Positions 40,145-51,065 of a stretch of DNA of 64,000 nt are shown piece by piece. The notes below the pieces were generated by a model. That model was not told the DNA's origin. It saw nothing but the letters and a program-made list of their open reading frames with translations, and searched no databases. The stretch covers positions 620,001 through 684,000 of the forward strand of contig NZ_CP033969.1 of assembly GCF_003854935.1 (NCBI RefSeq). The letters run 5' to 3'. The translations under genes were made by a program, and so were the position numbers. The DNA comes from Cupriavidus pauculus. GTDB taxonomy: Bacteria; Pseudomonadota; Gammaproteobacteria; Burkholderiales; Burkholderiaceae. The number at the start of each line of letters is the position of its first letter. The stretch's first letter is position 1.

Positions 40145-40672
40145 ATGATCTTCCGCACGTTCATCGCCCTGCTGCTGGCCGCCGCCGCGTCGCTGGCCTC
40201 GGCCCACATCGTCTTCGAACAGAAGCAGGCCAGCGCGGGCAGCTACTTCAAGGGCGTGCTGCTGGTGGGCCATGGCTGCCAGGGCAGCGCGACCAAGGCC
40301 ATCACTGTCACCGTCCCGGACGGCGTGCAGGGCGCGCGTCCGCAGCCCAAGCCCGGCTGGCAGCTCGACGTGCAGCGCGCCAGACTGGCCAAGCCCTACA
40401 CCTCGCACGGCCGGACCATCGAGGACGACGTGCGCACCATCCGCTGGTCCGGCAACACGCTGTCCGACCAGCATTTCGACGAATTTCAGCTGCTGATGAA
40501 GCTGCCCGAGCAGGCCGGCAAGCTCTACTTCCCCGTGGTGCAGGAATGCGAGAACGGCAGGTCCGAGTGGACCCAGATCCCGGCCGAGGGCCAGAACCCG
40601 CGCGAGCTGAAGTCGCCCGCCCCGGCGCTGGAACTCGTCGCCCCGGCCGGCCACGCGGGGCACAACCACTGA
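40145..40672 (+). CDS. YcnI-like (DUF1775) putative copper-binding protein
   Basis: A 175-aa exported protein. The signal peptide ends SLASA, leaving histidine as the first mature residue (HIVFEQ), which is how YcnI-type proteins bind Cu(II). The DUF1775 body shows VGHGCQGSATKAITVTVPDG and later YFPVVQECENGRSEWTQIP. The tail is His-rich (GHAGHNH). Together with the PCu(A)C chaperone 3 kb away this suggests a copper-handling neighbourhood. A bidirectional terminator follows. Confidence 0.85.
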   Translation: MIFRTFIALLLAAAASLASAHIVFEQKQASAGSYFKGVLLVGHGCQGSATKAITVTVPDGVQGARPQPKPGWQLDVQRARLAKPYTSHGRTIEDDVRTIRWSGNTLSDQHFDEFQLLMKLPEQAGKLYFPVVQECENGRSEWTQIPAEGQNPRELKSPAPALELVAPAGHAGHNH

Positions 40673-44251: not shown

Positions 44252-44268
44252 TGCAACTGAATTGCAAC
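44252..44268 (+). promoter_or_regulatory. Candidate Zur operator, site 1
   Basis: TGCAACTGAATTGCAAC: TGCAA/TTGCA arms separated by 5 bp. It is identical at 14 of 17 positions to a site at 47179-47195 upstream of a CobW-type GTPase operon. It overlaps a -35-like TTGCAA, so a bound repressor would block the promoter of the Fur/Zur gene. Confidence 0.6.
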
Positions 44269-44297: not shown

Positions 44298-44828
44298 ATG
44301 AACCGCCCCACCCCCCATCCGGACGCCGACACCGGGCACGGTGCCGCCCCCGCCGACAGCGCTGGCAGCGTCGATGCGGCGCAGTCGCGCCTGCGCCAGT
44401 TGGGCGCGCGCGTGACGCAGCCGCGCGTGGCCATCCTGGCGTGCCTGATCGACGCCGAGGCGCCGCTCACGCACCAGGCCGTGATCGACCGCCTGCCCGC
44501 CGATGGCGACGTGGACCGCGTGACCGTCTACCGCGTGCTGGACTGGCTGGTGGACCAGGGGCTGGCGCAGAAGCGCGCCGGCAACGACCGCGTGTTCCGC
44601 TTCACGCTGGTGGAACACGAGGCCGCGCGCGCCGAAGTCCATCGCCAGCACAGCCACTTCCATTGCACGCGCTGCGACCGCACGTACTGCCTGGAGGCGG
44701 CCGGCAAGTCCGTGGCGCCCAAGGTGCCGAGCGGCTTTGCGGTGGAACACGTCGAACTGACCGTCAACGGCGTCTGCGCGGCCTGCGGCAAGGCGCCAGG
44801 CGGCCATGGTGGCGGCAGCGATCACTGA
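44298..44828 (+). CDS. zur: Fur-family metal regulator, probably Zur/FurC
   Basis: A 176-aa Fur-family repressor. A 30-residue disordered N-terminus precedes the winged helix (RVTQPRVAILACLI, VDRVTVYRVLDWLVDQGL). The metal sites show HRQHSHFHCTRCDRTYCLE and a C-terminal CAACGKAPGGHGGGSDH, i.e. a CXXC...CXXC structural zinc site and a His-rich tail. The gene is followed at 70 bp by a CobW-type GTPase and shares an upstream motif with a second GTPase operon that contains a ZnuD-like receptor, which makes zinc the likely metal. The exact specificity (Zn versus Fe) is inferred from context. Confidence 0.85.
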   Translation: MNRPTPHPDADTGHGAAPADSAGSVDAAQSRLRQLGARVTQPRVAILACLIDAEAPLTHQAVIDRLPADGDVDRVTVYRVLDWLVDQGLAQKRAGNDRVFRFTLVEHEAARAEVHRQHSHFHCTRCDRTYCLEAAGKSVAPKVPSGFAVEHVELTVNGVCAACGKAPGGHGGGSDH

Positions 44829-44898: not shown

Positions 44899-45990
<1,092 letters not shown>

Positions 45991-46332: not shown

Positions 46333-47019
46333 ATGACAGCCGCAACAAAGACCAAGGAAAGCCGCAGCAAGACAGGTACCGCTGCGGCGGAGACGCTCAA
46401 GGCTTCGCCCGAAAAGGCGACGCCAGCTCCCCGCGGCAGTACGGCGCACGCCGATGCGGGCGAGGCCAAGGGAGGCACGCGAAGCAGCAAGACTGCAGCC
46501 AGCCAGAGTGAAACAGCCGCCCCGCGCAAGCGGGCGGCCACTGCACCCGAGCGGACGAAGACGCCGCCGGTCGCATCAACAAGAGAATCAGCAGGAACCA
46601 TGAGCAGCAACAAACTTCTGACTGAAGCTGAAATCCTGAAGATGAGCGACAAGGATTACATGAACGAGGCGCAGCTTGCCTTCTTCAAGAATCGCCTTGA
46701 GCAGCTTCGCGATGAAATCCTCAAGAATGCGGACCAGACCACGGAGCACCTGCGCGAAACGGTCATCGTGCCGGATCCGGCGGACCGCGCCACCATCGAG
46801 GAAGAACACGCCCTGGAACTGCGCACGCGCGACCGCGAGCGCAAGCTGCTGAAGAAGGTGGAACAGTCGCTGCAGCGCATCGAGTCCGGCGACTACGGCT
46901 GGTGCGAGGAAACCGGCGAGCCGATCGGCGTGCCGCGCCTGCTGGCCCGCCCCACGGCCACGCTGTCGCTGGAAGCCCAGCAGCGCCGCGAACTGCGCCA
47001 GAAGCTGTTCGGCGACTGA
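46333..47019 (+). CDS. dksA: RNA polymerase-binding transcription factor DksA, cysteine-poor form
   Basis: Binds the RNA polymerase secondary channel and acts with ppGpp in the stringent response. The conserved part starts at MSSNKLLTEAEILKM (residue 90). The coiled coil carries DPADRATIEEEHALELRTRDRE with the acidic tip. The globular end reads GWCEETGEPIGVPRLLARPTATLSLEAQ: only one of the four zinc cysteines remains, as in zinc-independent DksA forms. An 89-residue Ala/Lys/Thr-rich extension precedes it. Two starts are plausible: 46333 (AGAGAGG upstream) and 46600 (CAGGAACC upstream). It lies between two CobW-type GTPase genes. Confidence 0.93.
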   Translation: MTAATKTKESRSKTGTAAAETLKASPEKATPAPRGSTAHADAGEAKGGTRSSKTAASQSETAAPRKRAATAPERTKTPPVASTRESAGTMSSNKLLTEAEILKMSDKDYMNEAQLAFFKNRLEQLRDEILKNADQTTEHLRETVIVPDPADRATIEEEHALELRTRDRERKLLKKVEQSLQRIESGDYGWCEETGEPIGVPRLLARPTATLSLEAQQRRELRQKLFGD

Positions 47020-47178
47020 TCGCCCTGGCGGCCCGACGCGCCGTCATCGCCCGCGCGGCCCGGTCATCCGGGCCGCTTTGCCTTTCTGGCGGCGCGTTTT
47101 GCCTTTGTGGCGTCACGGCGACGGCACTACCATTGCGAAAGGCCGTTGCTATGCCCGCTCCGGCCTTTCTGTTACAGT

Positions 47179-47195
47179 CGCAACTTTGTTGCAAC
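47179..47195 (+). promoter_or_regulatory. Candidate Zur operator, site 2
   Basis: CGCAACTTTGTTGCAAC with perfect GCAAC/GTTGC arms around 3 bp. It matches site 1 (44252-44268) at 14 of 17 positions and lies 18 bp before the start codon of the second GTPase gene. Confidence 0.6.
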
Positions 47196-47212: not shown

Positions 47213-48400
47213 ATGCCCGCTCGCCTGCCCGTCACCGTGCTGTCCGGATTCACCGGCGCCGGCAAGACCACCGTGCTGCATCGGCTGATGTCGCAACCTG
47301 GCGTGCGCGTGGCCGTGGTGGACAGCCGTGCCGACCTGCTGGCGGAAGTGGATCGGCTGGCCCAGACCGGCCAGTACGACTTCGCGGTCATCGAGGCCGA
47401 TCCGACCGACGAGCCGCTGGGCATCGCCGAAGGCTTTGCGTTCGAGGACGCCCACGGCGAACAGGCGCCCGGCGTGGCCCACCTGGACACGCTGGTGACC
47501 GTGGTCGATGCCAGCCGCTTCCTGACCGACTTCCACGACGCCGATTTCCTGTCCGCGCGCGGCCTGGCCGCCCACGATGACGACGACCGCACCGTGGTGG
47601 ACGTGCTGATCGAGCAGGTCGAGGTCTGCGACGTCATCGTCATCAACAAGATCGACCTCGTCGATGCCGGCCAGCTTGGCCGCCTGCACGTGGTGCTGCG
47701 CGCGCTGAACCCGCGCGCCGCCATCGTCGACGCGAGCCAGGGCAACGTGCCGGCCGCGCAACTGCTGGGCACCGGCCGCTTCGACATGGAAGCCACGCCC
47801 AACGCGGCCGGATGGCAGGCCGCGCTGCAGGGCGACGCGGTGCCCGACGCCGCCGGCATCGCCACGCTGGTCTATCGCCGGCGCCGGCCGTTCCACCCGC
47901 AGCGGTTTGCCGACCTGATCCACACCGAATGGATGCGCGAGCATGGCGACGTGCTGCGGTCCAAGGGCCTGTTCTGGCTGGCCAGCCGCATGGATATCGC
48001 CGGCGACTGGAGCCAGGCCGGCGGCGTCTGCCGTCCCGGCGCGGCCGGCGCGTGGTGGGCCGCGATCGATCCCGACGAATGGCCGGCCGAGGGCCTGGCC
48101 CGCGCCGCCATCGACGCCGACCTGCTGGAGGACGGCCTGCCCGCCGAACACGGCGACCGCCGCCAGGAACTGGTGCTGATCGGCGCCGACCTGGACGTGC
48201 CCGCGCTGGAAGCCCGGCTCGACGCCTGCCTGCTGACCGACGAGGAAATGGCGGCCGGCCCCGATGCCTGGGCGGCCTATCCGGACCCGTTTCCGGACTG
48301 GGGCGATGCGTTCGACGACGATCACGACCATGATCACGGCCACGACGGCCATCGGCACGACCATGGCGACGGATCGTGCGACTGCGGGCATGCGCACTGA
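47213..48400 (+). CDS. ZigA/YciC-type COG0523 GTPase lacking the CXCC segment
   Basis: A 395-aa G3E-family protein. The Walker A SGFTGAGKTTVLHRL and the NKxD motif INKIDLV are intact, and the C-terminal half (YRRRRPFHPQRF, RSKGLFWLASR, WSQAGGVCR) matches the ZigA/YciC group. Between VRVAVVDSR and ADLLAEVDRLA about 45 residues usual in this group, including the CXCC metal site, are missing, and the G3 motif ESTGISEP is replaced by EADPTDEP. The tail is His/Asp-rich ending CDCGHAH. The reading frame is clean, so this is not a recent frameshift. First gene of an operon with a small membrane protein and a ZnuD-like receptor. Confidence 0.9.
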   Translation: MPARLPVTVLSGFTGAGKTTVLHRLMSQPGVRVAVVDSRADLLAEVDRLAQTGQYDFAVIEADPTDEPLGIAEGFAFEDAHGEQAPGVAHLDTLVTVVDASRFLTDFHDADFLSARGLAAHDDDDRTVVDVLIEQVEVCDVIVINKIDLVDAGQLGRLHVVLRALNPRAAIVDASQGNVPAAQLLGTGRFDMEATPNAAGWQAALQGDAVPDAAGIATLVYRRRRPFHPQRFADLIHTEWMREHGDVLRSKGLFWLASRMDIAGDWSQAGGVCRPGAAGAWWAAIDPDEWPAEGLARAAIDADLLEDGLPAEHGDRRQELVLIGADLDVPALEARLDACLLTDEEMAAGPDAWAAYPDPFPDWGDAFDDDHDHDHGHDGHRHDHGDGSCDCGHAH

Positions 48401-48803
48401 TCTCCCGCTCCTCTCACGCTGGCGCGCGCGCGGCGTCGGATTCTGGCCGGCGCTGTGGCTCGTGGCCTGCCTGCTGCTGGCGCAGCACGCCGGGCTGGTG
48501 CACCGCGTGGTCCACGGCGGGCTGCCCAATGCCGCCGCGCCGGCGGCCGCCATCGTGCCCGTCGCCCAGCATGCCGCGGGCGACACCCACGGCGAACCGT
48601 TTTCCCTGAAGCTCGGCCTCCACTCGTGCGTGCTCTTTGACGGCGCGACGATGGCCGACGCCCATGCCGGCGGCTTCACCCCGCCGCCGCTGGTCTTCGG
48701 CAAGCCGGTCAAGCCGGCCAGCCTGGCCTACCGCTGGCCGGACCTGCCGGCCGCCCGCCCGTTCCACTCCCGCGCCCCACCGGCCGCCTTCGCATTCGCC
48801 TGA
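48390..48803 (+). CDS. Small membrane protein in the zinc operon (DUF2946-like)
   Basis: A 137-aa protein starting 11 bp before the end of the upstream GTPase gene. It has one N-terminal hydrophobic helix (FWPALWLVACLLLAQHAGL, about residues 18-36) followed by HRVVHGG and a short Pro/Ala-rich periplasmic part with HSCVLFDGATMADAH. The layout recalls DUF2946-type small proteins found with metal-transport genes, but the match is weak. Its position between a Zur-linked GTPase and a TonB receptor suggests a role in zinc uptake (inference only). Confidence 0.65.
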   Translation: MRTDLPLLSRWRARGVGFWPALWLVACLLLAQHAGLVHRVVHGGLPNAAAPAAAIVPVAQHAAGDTHGEPFSLKLGLHSCVLFDGATMADAHAGGFTPPPLVFGKPVKPASLAYRWPDLPAARPFHSRAPPAAFAFA

Positions 48804-48911
48804 ACAGCCGGGCACGCGGCGCCATGCCGCGCGTCCGCGCATGCCTGAACGGGCGCGCCCACGCCATGCGTGGCGCCGCGCCCGCCCACCGAATCCGAAG
48901 CATCGCGAGCC

Positions 48912-51065
48912 ATGTCCTCGAACAAGAACCTTTTTCCGGCGGTGCGCCGCACCCCGCTGGCGGCGCTCGCCGCCCTGATCGCCGCTGGCCTCTCCTCGCA
49001 CGCCGTGGCGCAGGATGCCACCCCGGCCGCCCCGGTGGCGCCCGTGGCCCAGCCCGCCTCCCCGCAGACCCTCAAGGAAGTGGTGGTCACCGCCAACCCG
49101 CTCGGCAGCGACCTGAACGACATGGTCGCGCCCGTTTCCACGCTGGGCGGCGACGCGCTGACCGTGCGCCAGGCCAGCACGCTGGGCGAGACGCTGAACA
49201 GCCTGCCTGGCGTGACGTCGAGCTACTTCGGCCCCAACGCCAGCCGCCCCATCATCCGCGGCCTGGACGGCGACCGCATCAAGGTGCTGCAGAACGGCGG
49301 CGCCACGCTGGACGCGTCCACGCTGTCCTATGACCATGCGGTGCCCATCGACCCGCTCGTCGCCGAGAAGATCGAGGTGGTGCGCGGCCCGGCGGCGCTG
49401 ATGTACGGCGGCAACGCCGTGGGTGGCGTGGTCAACGTGATCGACAACCGCATCCCGCGCGACCCCATCACCGGCGTGACCGGCGCGGCCGACGTGAGCG
49501 GCACCATCGGCGGCGACAAGGGCCGCAACGCCAGCGGCCTGCTCGAAGCCGGCAACGGCAGGTTCGCCGTGCACGCCGACGCCTTCGTGCGCCAGACCAG
49601 CGACCTGCGCATCCCCGGCTACGCCCGCAGCGGCAACCTGCGCGCCACCCAGCCCCTGCCCGAGGGCGAGACCGAGCCGTACGGCAAGATCCCGAACACC
49701 AACGCGCACCAGGAAGGCGGCTCGATGGGCGGCGCCTACACGTGGGCGGACGGGTTCGTCGGCGCCAACTGGTCGACCTACCGCAACGACTACGGCACCC
49801 CGGCCGAGGAAGCCGCGCGCATCAAGATGCGGCAGGACCGCTTTGCCGTGGAAGGCGAATCGCGCAACCTGGCCGGCAGCACCAACGGCATCTTCCAGTC
49901 GGTCAAGGGCAAGTTCAGCTACACCGACTACGAGCACCGCGAGATCGAGGACGGCGAGACCGGCACCACGTTCAAGAACCACGGCTGGGACGCCCGCATC
50001 GAAGCCACGCACGGCAAGATCGGCAACATGACCGGCGTGATCGGCACCCAGTTCGGCCACACCAACTTCTCGGCGCTGGGCGAGGAAGCCTTCGTGCCGT
50101 CCACCGCCACCGACAACGCCGCGTTCTTCGTGTTCGAGGAACTGCCGCTGATCCCGTCCGGCGACCTGAAGCTGAACTTCGGCGGCCGGCTGGACCACAG
50201 CCGCGTCAAGGCCACCGCCAACGGCAACGACCGCTTCAGCGACGCCGAGCGCAGCTTCAACGCCGGCAGCGCGTCGGCCGGCCTGCTCTACAAGCTCAAC
50301 CCGGTCTGGACGGTGACGTCGAACCTGTCGTACACCGAGCGGGCGCCCACGTTCTACGAGCTCTACGCCAACGGCCCCCACCTGGCCACCGGATCGTTCG
50401 AAGTGGGCGACCCGAATGCAGCCAAGGAACGCGCGACGTCGATCGACCTGGGCGTGCGGTTCAAGCAGGGCGACCACAGCGGCAGCGTGTCCGGCTACTA
50501 CAGCCGGTTCCAGAATTACCTGGCGCTGCTGAACACGGGCGCCTACCGCGACAGCGAAGGCAACGTGGTGGCCGCCGGCAGCGACGGCGCGCTGCCCGAG
50601 CTGACCTACCTGGGCGTGCCGGCCACGCTGTACGGCTTCGAGGCCGAGGGCAAGACCCGCCTGCTGAACAAGCTGCTGACCACCAGCGACACGCTCGACT
50701 TCGAAGCCCGCGCCGACTACGTCCACGGCGAAAACCGCAGCAACGGCGAACCGCTGCCGCGCCTGTCGCCGCTGCGCCTGGGCGGATCGCTGGTCTACGC
50801 CGCCGGCGCCTGGGGCGCCCGCGTCAACGTCGACTGGAACGCCCGCCAGAGCCGCGTGCCGTCCGGCGACACGGCCACCGACGCGTACACCATGCTCGGC
50901 GTGGCGCTGACCTACAAGGTCAAGCTGTCCGGCACCCAGACGCTGTTCTACGTGCGCGGCGACAACCTGACCAACACCGAAGCCCGCAGCGCCACGTCGA
51001 TCCTGCGCGACATCGCCCCGCTGCCAGGCCGCAGCGTGCGAATCGGGATGCGGACGCAGTTTTGA
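48912..51065 (+). CDS. znuD: TonB-dependent outer-membrane receptor, ZnuD-like
   Basis: A 717-aa outer-membrane receptor with a signal peptide (to SHAVAQ), a TonB-box-like LKEVVVTANP (about residues 55-64), a plug domain with SRPIIRGLDGDRIKVL, LDASTLSYDHAV, VEKIEVVRGPAALMYGGNAV-type sequence, and a 22-strand barrel ending in phenylalanine (GMRTQF). The plug is of the ZnuD type that takes up zinc in Neisseria and is repressed by Zur. It is the third gene of the operon behind candidate Zur site 2. Zinc as the substrate is inferred from similarity and context. The ATG at 48912 gives the signal peptide. Confidence 0.88.
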   Translation: MSSNKNLFPAVRRTPLAALAALIAAGLSSHAVAQDATPAAPVAPVAQPASPQTLKEVVVTANPLGSDLNDMVAPVSTLGGDALTVRQASTLGETLNSLPGVTSSYFGPNASRPIIRGLDGDRIKVLQNGGATLDASTLSYDHAVPIDPLVAEKIEVVRGPAALMYGGNAVGGVVNVIDNRIPRDPITGVTGAADVSGTIGGDKGRNASGLLEAGNGRFAVHADAFVRQTSDLRIPGYARSGNLRATQPLPEGETEPYGKIPNTNAHQEGGSMGGAYTWADGFVGANWSTYRNDYGTPAEEAARIKMRQDRFAVEGESRNLAGSTNGIFQSVKGKFSYTDYEHREIEDGETGTTFKNHGWDARIEATHGKIGNMTGVIGTQFGHTNFSALGEEAFVPSTATDNAAFFVFEELPLIPSGDLKLNFGGRLDHSRVKATANGNDRFSDAERSFNAGSASAGLLYKLNPVWTVTSNLSYTERAPTFYELYANGPHLATGSFEVGDPNAAKERATSIDLGVRFKQGDHSGSVSGYYSRFQNYLALLNTGAYRDSEGNVVAAGSDGALPELTYLGVPATLYGFEAEGKTRLLNKLLTTSDTLDFEARADYVHGENRSNGEPLPRLSPLRLGGSLVYAAGAWGARVNVDWNARQSRVPSGDTATDAYTMLGVALTYKVKLSGTQTLFYVRGDNLTNTEARSATSILRDIAPLPGRSVRIGMRTQF

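Follow-up and report, generated by a model that had tools for sequence, protein, structure and literature searches.

Introduction

A conserved CXCC motif has been ascribed to all members of COG0523 (PMC2770081). CobW3 of Cupriavidus metallidurans, unlike the other COG0523 proteins with which it was compared, lacks this GCI/mCC site, and GTPase activity is absent from it (PMC11340326). Here we describe a gene at 47213..48400 in a stretch of 64,000 nucleotides from Cupriavidus pauculus (the window; all coordinates refer to it and all genes of the zinc locus lie on its forward strand), whose product is the orthologue of CobW3. As CobW3 has already been published as lacking both the metal site and GTPase activity, the protein is not of a new kind. 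What is new is that the loss of CXCC is repeated and accompanied by a matched change of selective constraint, for which we found no description in the literature by title or abstract, the level at which most of it was screened.

In the parts of the published work on C. metallidurans available to us, CobW3 is a member of the Zur regulon, with zur, zupT and cobW3 under Zur control, and its C-terminus binds about eight zinc ions with decreasing affinity (PMC11340326). Together with ZupT and CobW2 it influences the zinc and cobalt content of the cell; cobW3 mutants are affected in metal import and in ZupT-dependent flow, CobW2 is the proposed store, and CobW2 and CobW3 show an antagonistic genetic interplay when cells are under cobalt stress (PMC11340326). 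Two further accounts, seen in similar part, regard the GTPase function as lost and control of transport as possible (PMC12632275, PMC13192273). At the locus, dksA sits between cobW2 and cobW3, and zur lies upstream of cobW2 (PMC13192273). A second departure from the family pattern, described in portions of other reports, is Rv0106, a Zur-repressed COG0523-like protein without both GTPase motifs (PMC2770081) that has been named Mrf (PMC13418864).

Anatomy and Identity of CobW3 in C. pauculus

The cobW3 frame runs without internal stop and encodes 395 residues. The protein begins MPARLPVTVLSGFTGAGKTTVL, which includes the P-loop, and further along reads VRVAVVDSRADLLAEVDRLAQTGQYDFAVIEADPTDEP. 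Pfam recognizes a cobW domain (PF02492, 73.7 bits in two stretches against a cut-off of 20.7) and a CobW_C domain (PF07683, 87.3 bits against 22) at residues 216-340 (47858..48232). A preliminary description of this DNA had stated that the P-loop and NKID are intact and that CXCC is missing, and translation confirms this: the G1 motif GFTGAGKT occupies residues 12-19 (47246..47269) and the G4 motif NKID residues 145-148 (47645..47656). The gap itself, put there at about 45 residues, proved smaller. The reference was L125, an orthologue that bears CXCC and occupies this locus in another Cupriavidus; relative to it, BLASTP and alignment show 36 residues, comprising the switch I region and GCICC, to be absent between residues 38 and 39 of the C. 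pauculus protein (junction at 47324..47329). The altered G3/switch II reading, EADPTDEP (residues 61-68; 47393..47416), was correct, with the G3 glutamate retained and the ExxG glycine lost, but the form it should be set against is ESTGVAEP, found in 14/15 CXCC-bearing Cupriavidus orthologues, rather than ESTGISEP; the G3 motifs of the 25 other CXCC-bearing rows read ESTGISEP, ESTGIAEP or ESTGVAEP. The protein therefore has the Pfam domain pair, the Walker A P-loop and the NKxD of COG0523/CobW proteins but neither CXCC nor a G3 ExxG. Its His/Cys-rich C-terminal tail (residues 369-395; 48317..48397) contains CDCGHAH and is predicted to be disordered (predicted local distance difference test score, pLDDT, below 50). 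Of the curated families, ZigA (NF038288) scores highest, with 408.3 bits, below the cut-off of 600; the MRF model NF047431 gives 143.2 bits, below its cut-off of 375.

The gene is the orthologue of cobW3 because the locus order zur-cobW2-dksA-cobW3 matches that of C. metallidurans, and because its product is 83% identical to, and carries the same lesions as, the protein of locus L088, which we take to be CobW3 of C. metallidurans CH34. Cupriavidus pauculus, at 92%, is among the nearest named records. All 61 Cupriavidus genomes searched contain a match to the protein, represented by the window and the stretches L080-L139. Upstream of cobW3, dksA is present in 61/61 of these stretches, cobW2 in 60/61 and zur in 58/61; contig ends account for the missing cobW2 and for the missing zur of L112, L124 and L134.

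CXCC Loss and the His/Cys Tail across the Family

We aligned 100 proteins, namely 60 open-frame Cupriavidus orthologues and 40 others, of which six are second copies from Cupriavidus and the remainder come from other genera of Burkholderiaceae. L139, which has a broken frame and shares its contig with L055, was dropped from the orthologue counts; the portion of L055 that was read is also without CXCC. CXCC is missing from 45 of the 60 intact Cupriavidus orthologues and present in 15. The loss is thus not unique to the C. pauculus sequence, but close relatives that keep CXCC, which the preliminary description had counted against its reading, do occur. The loss is also graded, in that 18 of the 45 CXCC-less rows hold a one-cysteine remnant (PPGC), while less of the segment survives in the rest.

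When the tree is built from the alignment with the deletion, G3 and tail columns removed, two changes of the CXCC label are needed. One change covers the 45 Cupriavidus rows, and the other covers 14 rows from three other Burkholderiaceae genera (g9, g16 and g20), hereafter the second clade. Across bootstrap replicates the number of changes ranges from 2 to 3 with the long-branched L178 and stays at 2 without it; the branch uniting the 45 rows with L178 has support of 89/99. L178, whose branch is very long, may represent a third loss. This gene (L178:5259-6470, genus g4) stands at the zur-cobW2-dksA position. CXCC and G3 are gone from its product, the P-loop is without its lysine (GLPGTGVS) and G4 reads NRTD, but a His/Cys tail is retained; it is perhaps a full pseudo-GTPase.

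A sample of 300 genomes of the order gave matches at E 1e-60 in 46. Of the 28 new loci read (L182-L209), 27 bear CXCC and the remaining one, L192, falls in the second clade, so that a spread of the loss beyond the family was rejected. Among plasmid records the second clade found no close match, all being below 60% identity. Backup by a CXCC-bearing ZigA copy is likewise unsupported: a second ZigA-like match occurs in 6/61 Cupriavidus genomes, three in which cobW3 has CXCC (G152, G153, G154) and three in which it does not (G161, G171, G173), and none was found in the C. pauculus genome at E 1e-10. The second row of G184 is a fragment of its broken gene and not a second copy.

All 45 CXCC-less Cupriavidus rows keep GxxGxGK[TS] and 39 keep NKxD (three have NKAE and three NHxD), while ExxG is found in 27/45, against 15/15 CXCC-bearing Cupriavidus rows, C. 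pauculus being among the 18 without it. GFLGAGKT is present in 40/40 CXCC-bearing rows, and ExxG..P persists in 8/14 rows of the second clade. In that clade, both the P-loop and the G4 motif are damaged in L158, L159 and L167, and L160 has NHAD (genera g16 and g9). As these four and L178 have lost key P-loop or NKxD residues, nucleotide binding itself may be dispensable in some second-clade members and in L178.

Tails with at least five His and at least two Cys occur in 45/45 CXCC-less Cupriavidus rows. The 15 CXCC-bearing orthologues all have tails as well (3-12 His, at least two Cys), as do three g24 rows, and on the tree the His/Cys tail would predate the loss of CXCC in the Cupriavidus lineage. 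We accordingly rejected a gain of the tail as compensation for the loss. Second-clade tails have 5-18 His, with Cys absent in 4/14. A formal test of an association between CXCC loss and tail richness has two independent pairs to draw on and hence no statistical power.

Selective Constraint Has Shifted within the Protein

We compared the ratio of nonsynonymous to synonymous differences (pN/pS) for each part of the protein, using Nei-Gojobori-type pair counts with no fitted model and draws of disjoint pairs, which reduce non-independence; the three smaller groups give 4-7 pairs per draw. With the deletion columns excluded, the median for the GTPase domain is 0.507 in CXCC-less Cupriavidus, where the CXCC-bearing rows of the genus have 0.203; the second clade has 0.490 and its CXCC-bearing relatives 0.221. 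Values for CobW_C hardly move (0.304 against 0.271, and 0.245 against 0.256). The tail goes the other way, from 0.378 in CXCC-bearing to 0.222 in CXCC-less Cupriavidus, and from 0.441 in the relatives to 0.306 in the second clade, where the ranges overlap (0.342-0.508 and 0.229-0.371). Counting all pairs gives the same direction for both Cupriavidus groups and similar values for the second clade, its relatives not being in that count. Both losses are thus accompanied by freer evolution of the GTPase domain and a tendency to stronger constraint on the tail, with no change in CobW_C.

The neighbours of cobW3 do not share this shift. In genomes with CXCC-less and CXCC-bearing cobW3, respectively, pN/pS is 0.162 and 0.176 for cobW2, 0.174 and 0.265 for dksA, 0.314 and 0.422 for the receptor gene downstream, and slightly higher in the former for zur (0.335 and 0.27).

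These ratios, all well under 1, together with the 45 of 60 orthologues that share the short form, bear out the earlier view that this form is maintained and not decaying. Although the GTPase domain stands at about 0.5 and one genome has a broken cobW3 frame, with zur and cobW2 there also in pieces, CobW_C and the tail are constrained and the frame is open in 60/61 Cupriavidus genomes, which leads us to reject decay or assembly error as the origin of the short form and to give a decaying gene practically no weight.

A Possible Metal-Occupancy Adaptor

We consider it reasonably probable that CobW3 is a Zur-controlled former ZigA-type GTPase that serves as a metal-occupancy adaptor through its disordered His/Cys tail and so adjusts import. 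Its ancestor would have been a ZigA-type zinc-chaperone GTPase that lost the beta-2/alpha-2 segment, with switch I and CXCC, and the switch II glycine. Since the Rossmann scaffold, P-loop and NKxD are kept, CobW3 may still bind nucleotide, but metal binding would no longer be coupled to GTP hydrolysis; metal would be held instead by the tail attached to CobW_C. On zinc shortage Zur would leave the promoter and CobW3 would be produced, the occupancy of its tail by zinc (or cobalt) would report the metal mix, and import would be adjusted via ZupT and other transporters, with the old GTPase domain giving the protein its shape and perhaps binding nucleotide without turning it over. Published data for the orthologue underlie the first of these steps; for the signalling step, we infer tail occupancy to be the signal. 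The preliminary description had likewise proposed a regulator using its His-rich tail for metal, in broad agreement with what parts of the reports on the orthologue say (PMC11340326, PMC12632275, PMC13192273), but tails of this kind also occur in CXCC-bearing orthologues.

A lead towards Zur control is a candidate Zur box at 47177..47195, about 20 bp upstream of cobW3, with the dyad GCAACTTTGTTGC at 47180-47192, together with a related candidate box at 44253..44268 upstream of zur. Exact GTTGCAA/TTGCAAC lies within 130 bp upstream of cobW3 in 55/60 Cupriavidus rows; it was not found within that distance in L087, L088, L095, L114 and L138, nor upstream in the four rows examined from other genera (L161-L163 and L178). 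Control of C. pauculus cobW3 by Zur via this candidate box would be in line with the Zur control published for C. metallidurans (PMC11340326).

Several points weigh against this adaptor role. The box patterns derive from the cobW3 and zur sites that they find; the strict one finds those two only, as against two in the control, and a looser one has 12 genome matches against eight in the reversed control; the 12 include the cobW3 dyad on both strands (two matches), the zur site (one) and one match about 90-100 bp upstream of the one ZIP-family gene found. The tightening of the tail in the second clade comes with the overlapping ranges given above. The G1 columns, at a pN/pS of 0.228 in CXCC-less against 0.080 in CXCC-bearing Cupriavidus, remain constrained, so nucleotide binding may still matter there, and the P-loop in 45/45 and NKxD in 39/45 rows point to continued selection on a nucleotide site for which a mere scaffold would have no use. 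The biochemistry of CobW3 is reportedly that of a 2019 paper in J Bacteriol, cited here second-hand. Its sensor role is, in the portion of the source available, a genetic inference by others (PMC11340326), and no physical contact between CobW3 and ZupT is reported in the parts of the published CobW3 work consulted.

CobW3 might instead be a passive zinc (and cobalt) buffer whose tail stores metal in starvation and sends no signal to transporters. The binding of about eight zinc ions with decreasing affinity and a tail whose constraint in CXCC-less Cupriavidus is among the strongest in the protein would suit such a role; a pure store, however, has no need of a conserved P-loop, and the reported mutants affect import and ZupT-dependent flow, the proposed store being CobW2 (PMC11340326, in part), which makes a buffer rather unlikely. 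Less likely still is the partnership with the CXCC-bearing paralogue that the preliminary description also envisaged, in which a catalytically silent CobW3 would bind CobW2 and tune its GTPase or zinc release. Although cobW2 shares the locus in 60/61 Cupriavidus stretches and the two genes are antagonistic under cobalt stress, 0/14 second-clade loci show a cobW2, zur or dksA match in stretches of 12 kb, CobW2 is about equally constrained alongside either CobW3 form, and the published accounts, as far as they were available, tie CobW3 mainly to ZupT and metal import and yielded no evidence of physical interaction.

Very improbable, in our view, is an adaptor for another machine, in the way that mycobacterial Mrf recruits a ribosome hibernation factor. 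Zur repression and missing GTPase motifs are common ground with Rv0106/Mrf (PMC2770081, PMC13418864, in part), and CobW3 scores 143 bits with the MRF model, but that is far under its 375-bit cut-off, the ZigA model gives 408, and the CobW3 phenotypes described in the available portions concern metal uptake and content. We give no greater chance to a chaperone that is still driven by GTP and hydrolyses it in a rearranged site: the P-loop, the G3 glutamate and NKID are retained, but the switch I region, CXCC and the ExxG glycine are gone, and parts of three reports describe the orthologue as without GTPase activity (PMC11340326, PMC12632275, PMC13192273).

We regard as evenly balanced the broader proposition that on two or more occasions in Burkholderiaceae a ZigA zinc-chaperone GTPase became a pseudo-GTPase metal sensor, the tail coming first, followed by loss of switch I and CXCC, a relaxed GTPase domain and a tightened tail. 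In that case CobW3 would exemplify an evolutionary path, taken repeatedly, that leads from metal insertase to metal-occupancy adaptor. An oddity known from one metal-resistant laboratory strain is the commoner form among the sampled Cupriavidus genomes, and one that arose again within the family. The natural series of intact CXCC, one-cysteine remnant, full deletion and damaged P-loop lets the separate roles of GTPase site and metal-binding tail be probed in COG0523 chaperones, family-wide up to the vertebrate members.

Neighbouring Genes

A gene for a Fur-family regulator (44298..44828; Pfam FUR, 33.2 bits) is taken to be zur from its position in the locus. It is followed by cobW2 (44899..45990), a COG0523 paralogue by family profiles with an internal His-rich stretch, in which the CXCC announced by the preliminary description is indeed present as GCICC. 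The dksA gene (46333..47019; TIGR02420, 146.7 bits) is the sole TIGR02420 match in the genome and has largely lost its zinc-finger cysteines. A single one remains (CEET...LSLEA) in 60/60 Cupriavidus rows counted, so that DksA looks zinc-independent; the protein is also extended at its N-terminus by an Ala/Lys-rich stretch, provided that translation does not start at a later ATG, at about 46600. Downstream of cobW3, a small open reading frame (48390..48803), a neighbour in the Cupriavidus stretches too, is matched at E 0.001 by neither Pfam nor NCBIfam. It precedes a gene for a ZnuD-like TonB-dependent receptor (48870..51065) with Pfam plug and barrel domains, whose best NCBIfam match, Zn_piracy_ZnuD, reaches 309.7 bits where the cut-off is 950. 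Near the zinc locus, a DUF1775 protein (40145-40672) has a short His-containing end, GHAGHNH, possibly for metal handling.

Comparison with Known Systems

Among the systems compared, Mrf (Rv0106-type) is, like CobW3, a Zur-linked COG0523-like protein with lost GTPase motifs; the two differ in their lesions and in the known task of Mrf, and CobW3 stays under the Mrf cut-off (143 against 375 bits). YjiA of Escherichia coli (1nij, 4ixm, 4ixn) carries CXCC in its switch I, according to the part of the source available (PMC2770081), whereas C. pauculus CobW3 has none. The CobW3 tail is without a YjiA counterpart, since the YjiA chain ends where the CobW3 model reaches residue 341; the structure-match lists rank Foldseek's own candidates only, so absence from them is uninformative. 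ZigA (NF038288) is the closest curated family, yet CobW3 scores under its cut-off, and plasmid records annotated as ZigA are 44.6-46.1% identical to it among the matches listed (40 of 1540). The ZigA-like proteins of the order's other families have CXCC in 27/27 loci read, and their final 40 residues contain no His-rich stretch. Closest of all is CobW3 of C. metallidurans. A second ZigA-like match (E 1e-10) exists in the genome of L088 but not in that of C. pauculus, and G3 reads EAGATDEP in the L088 protein, presumably CobW3 of CH34, instead of EADPTDEP; the two nevertheless share the locus order, the absence of an internal GCxCC, the P-loop and the C-terminal His-rich tail.
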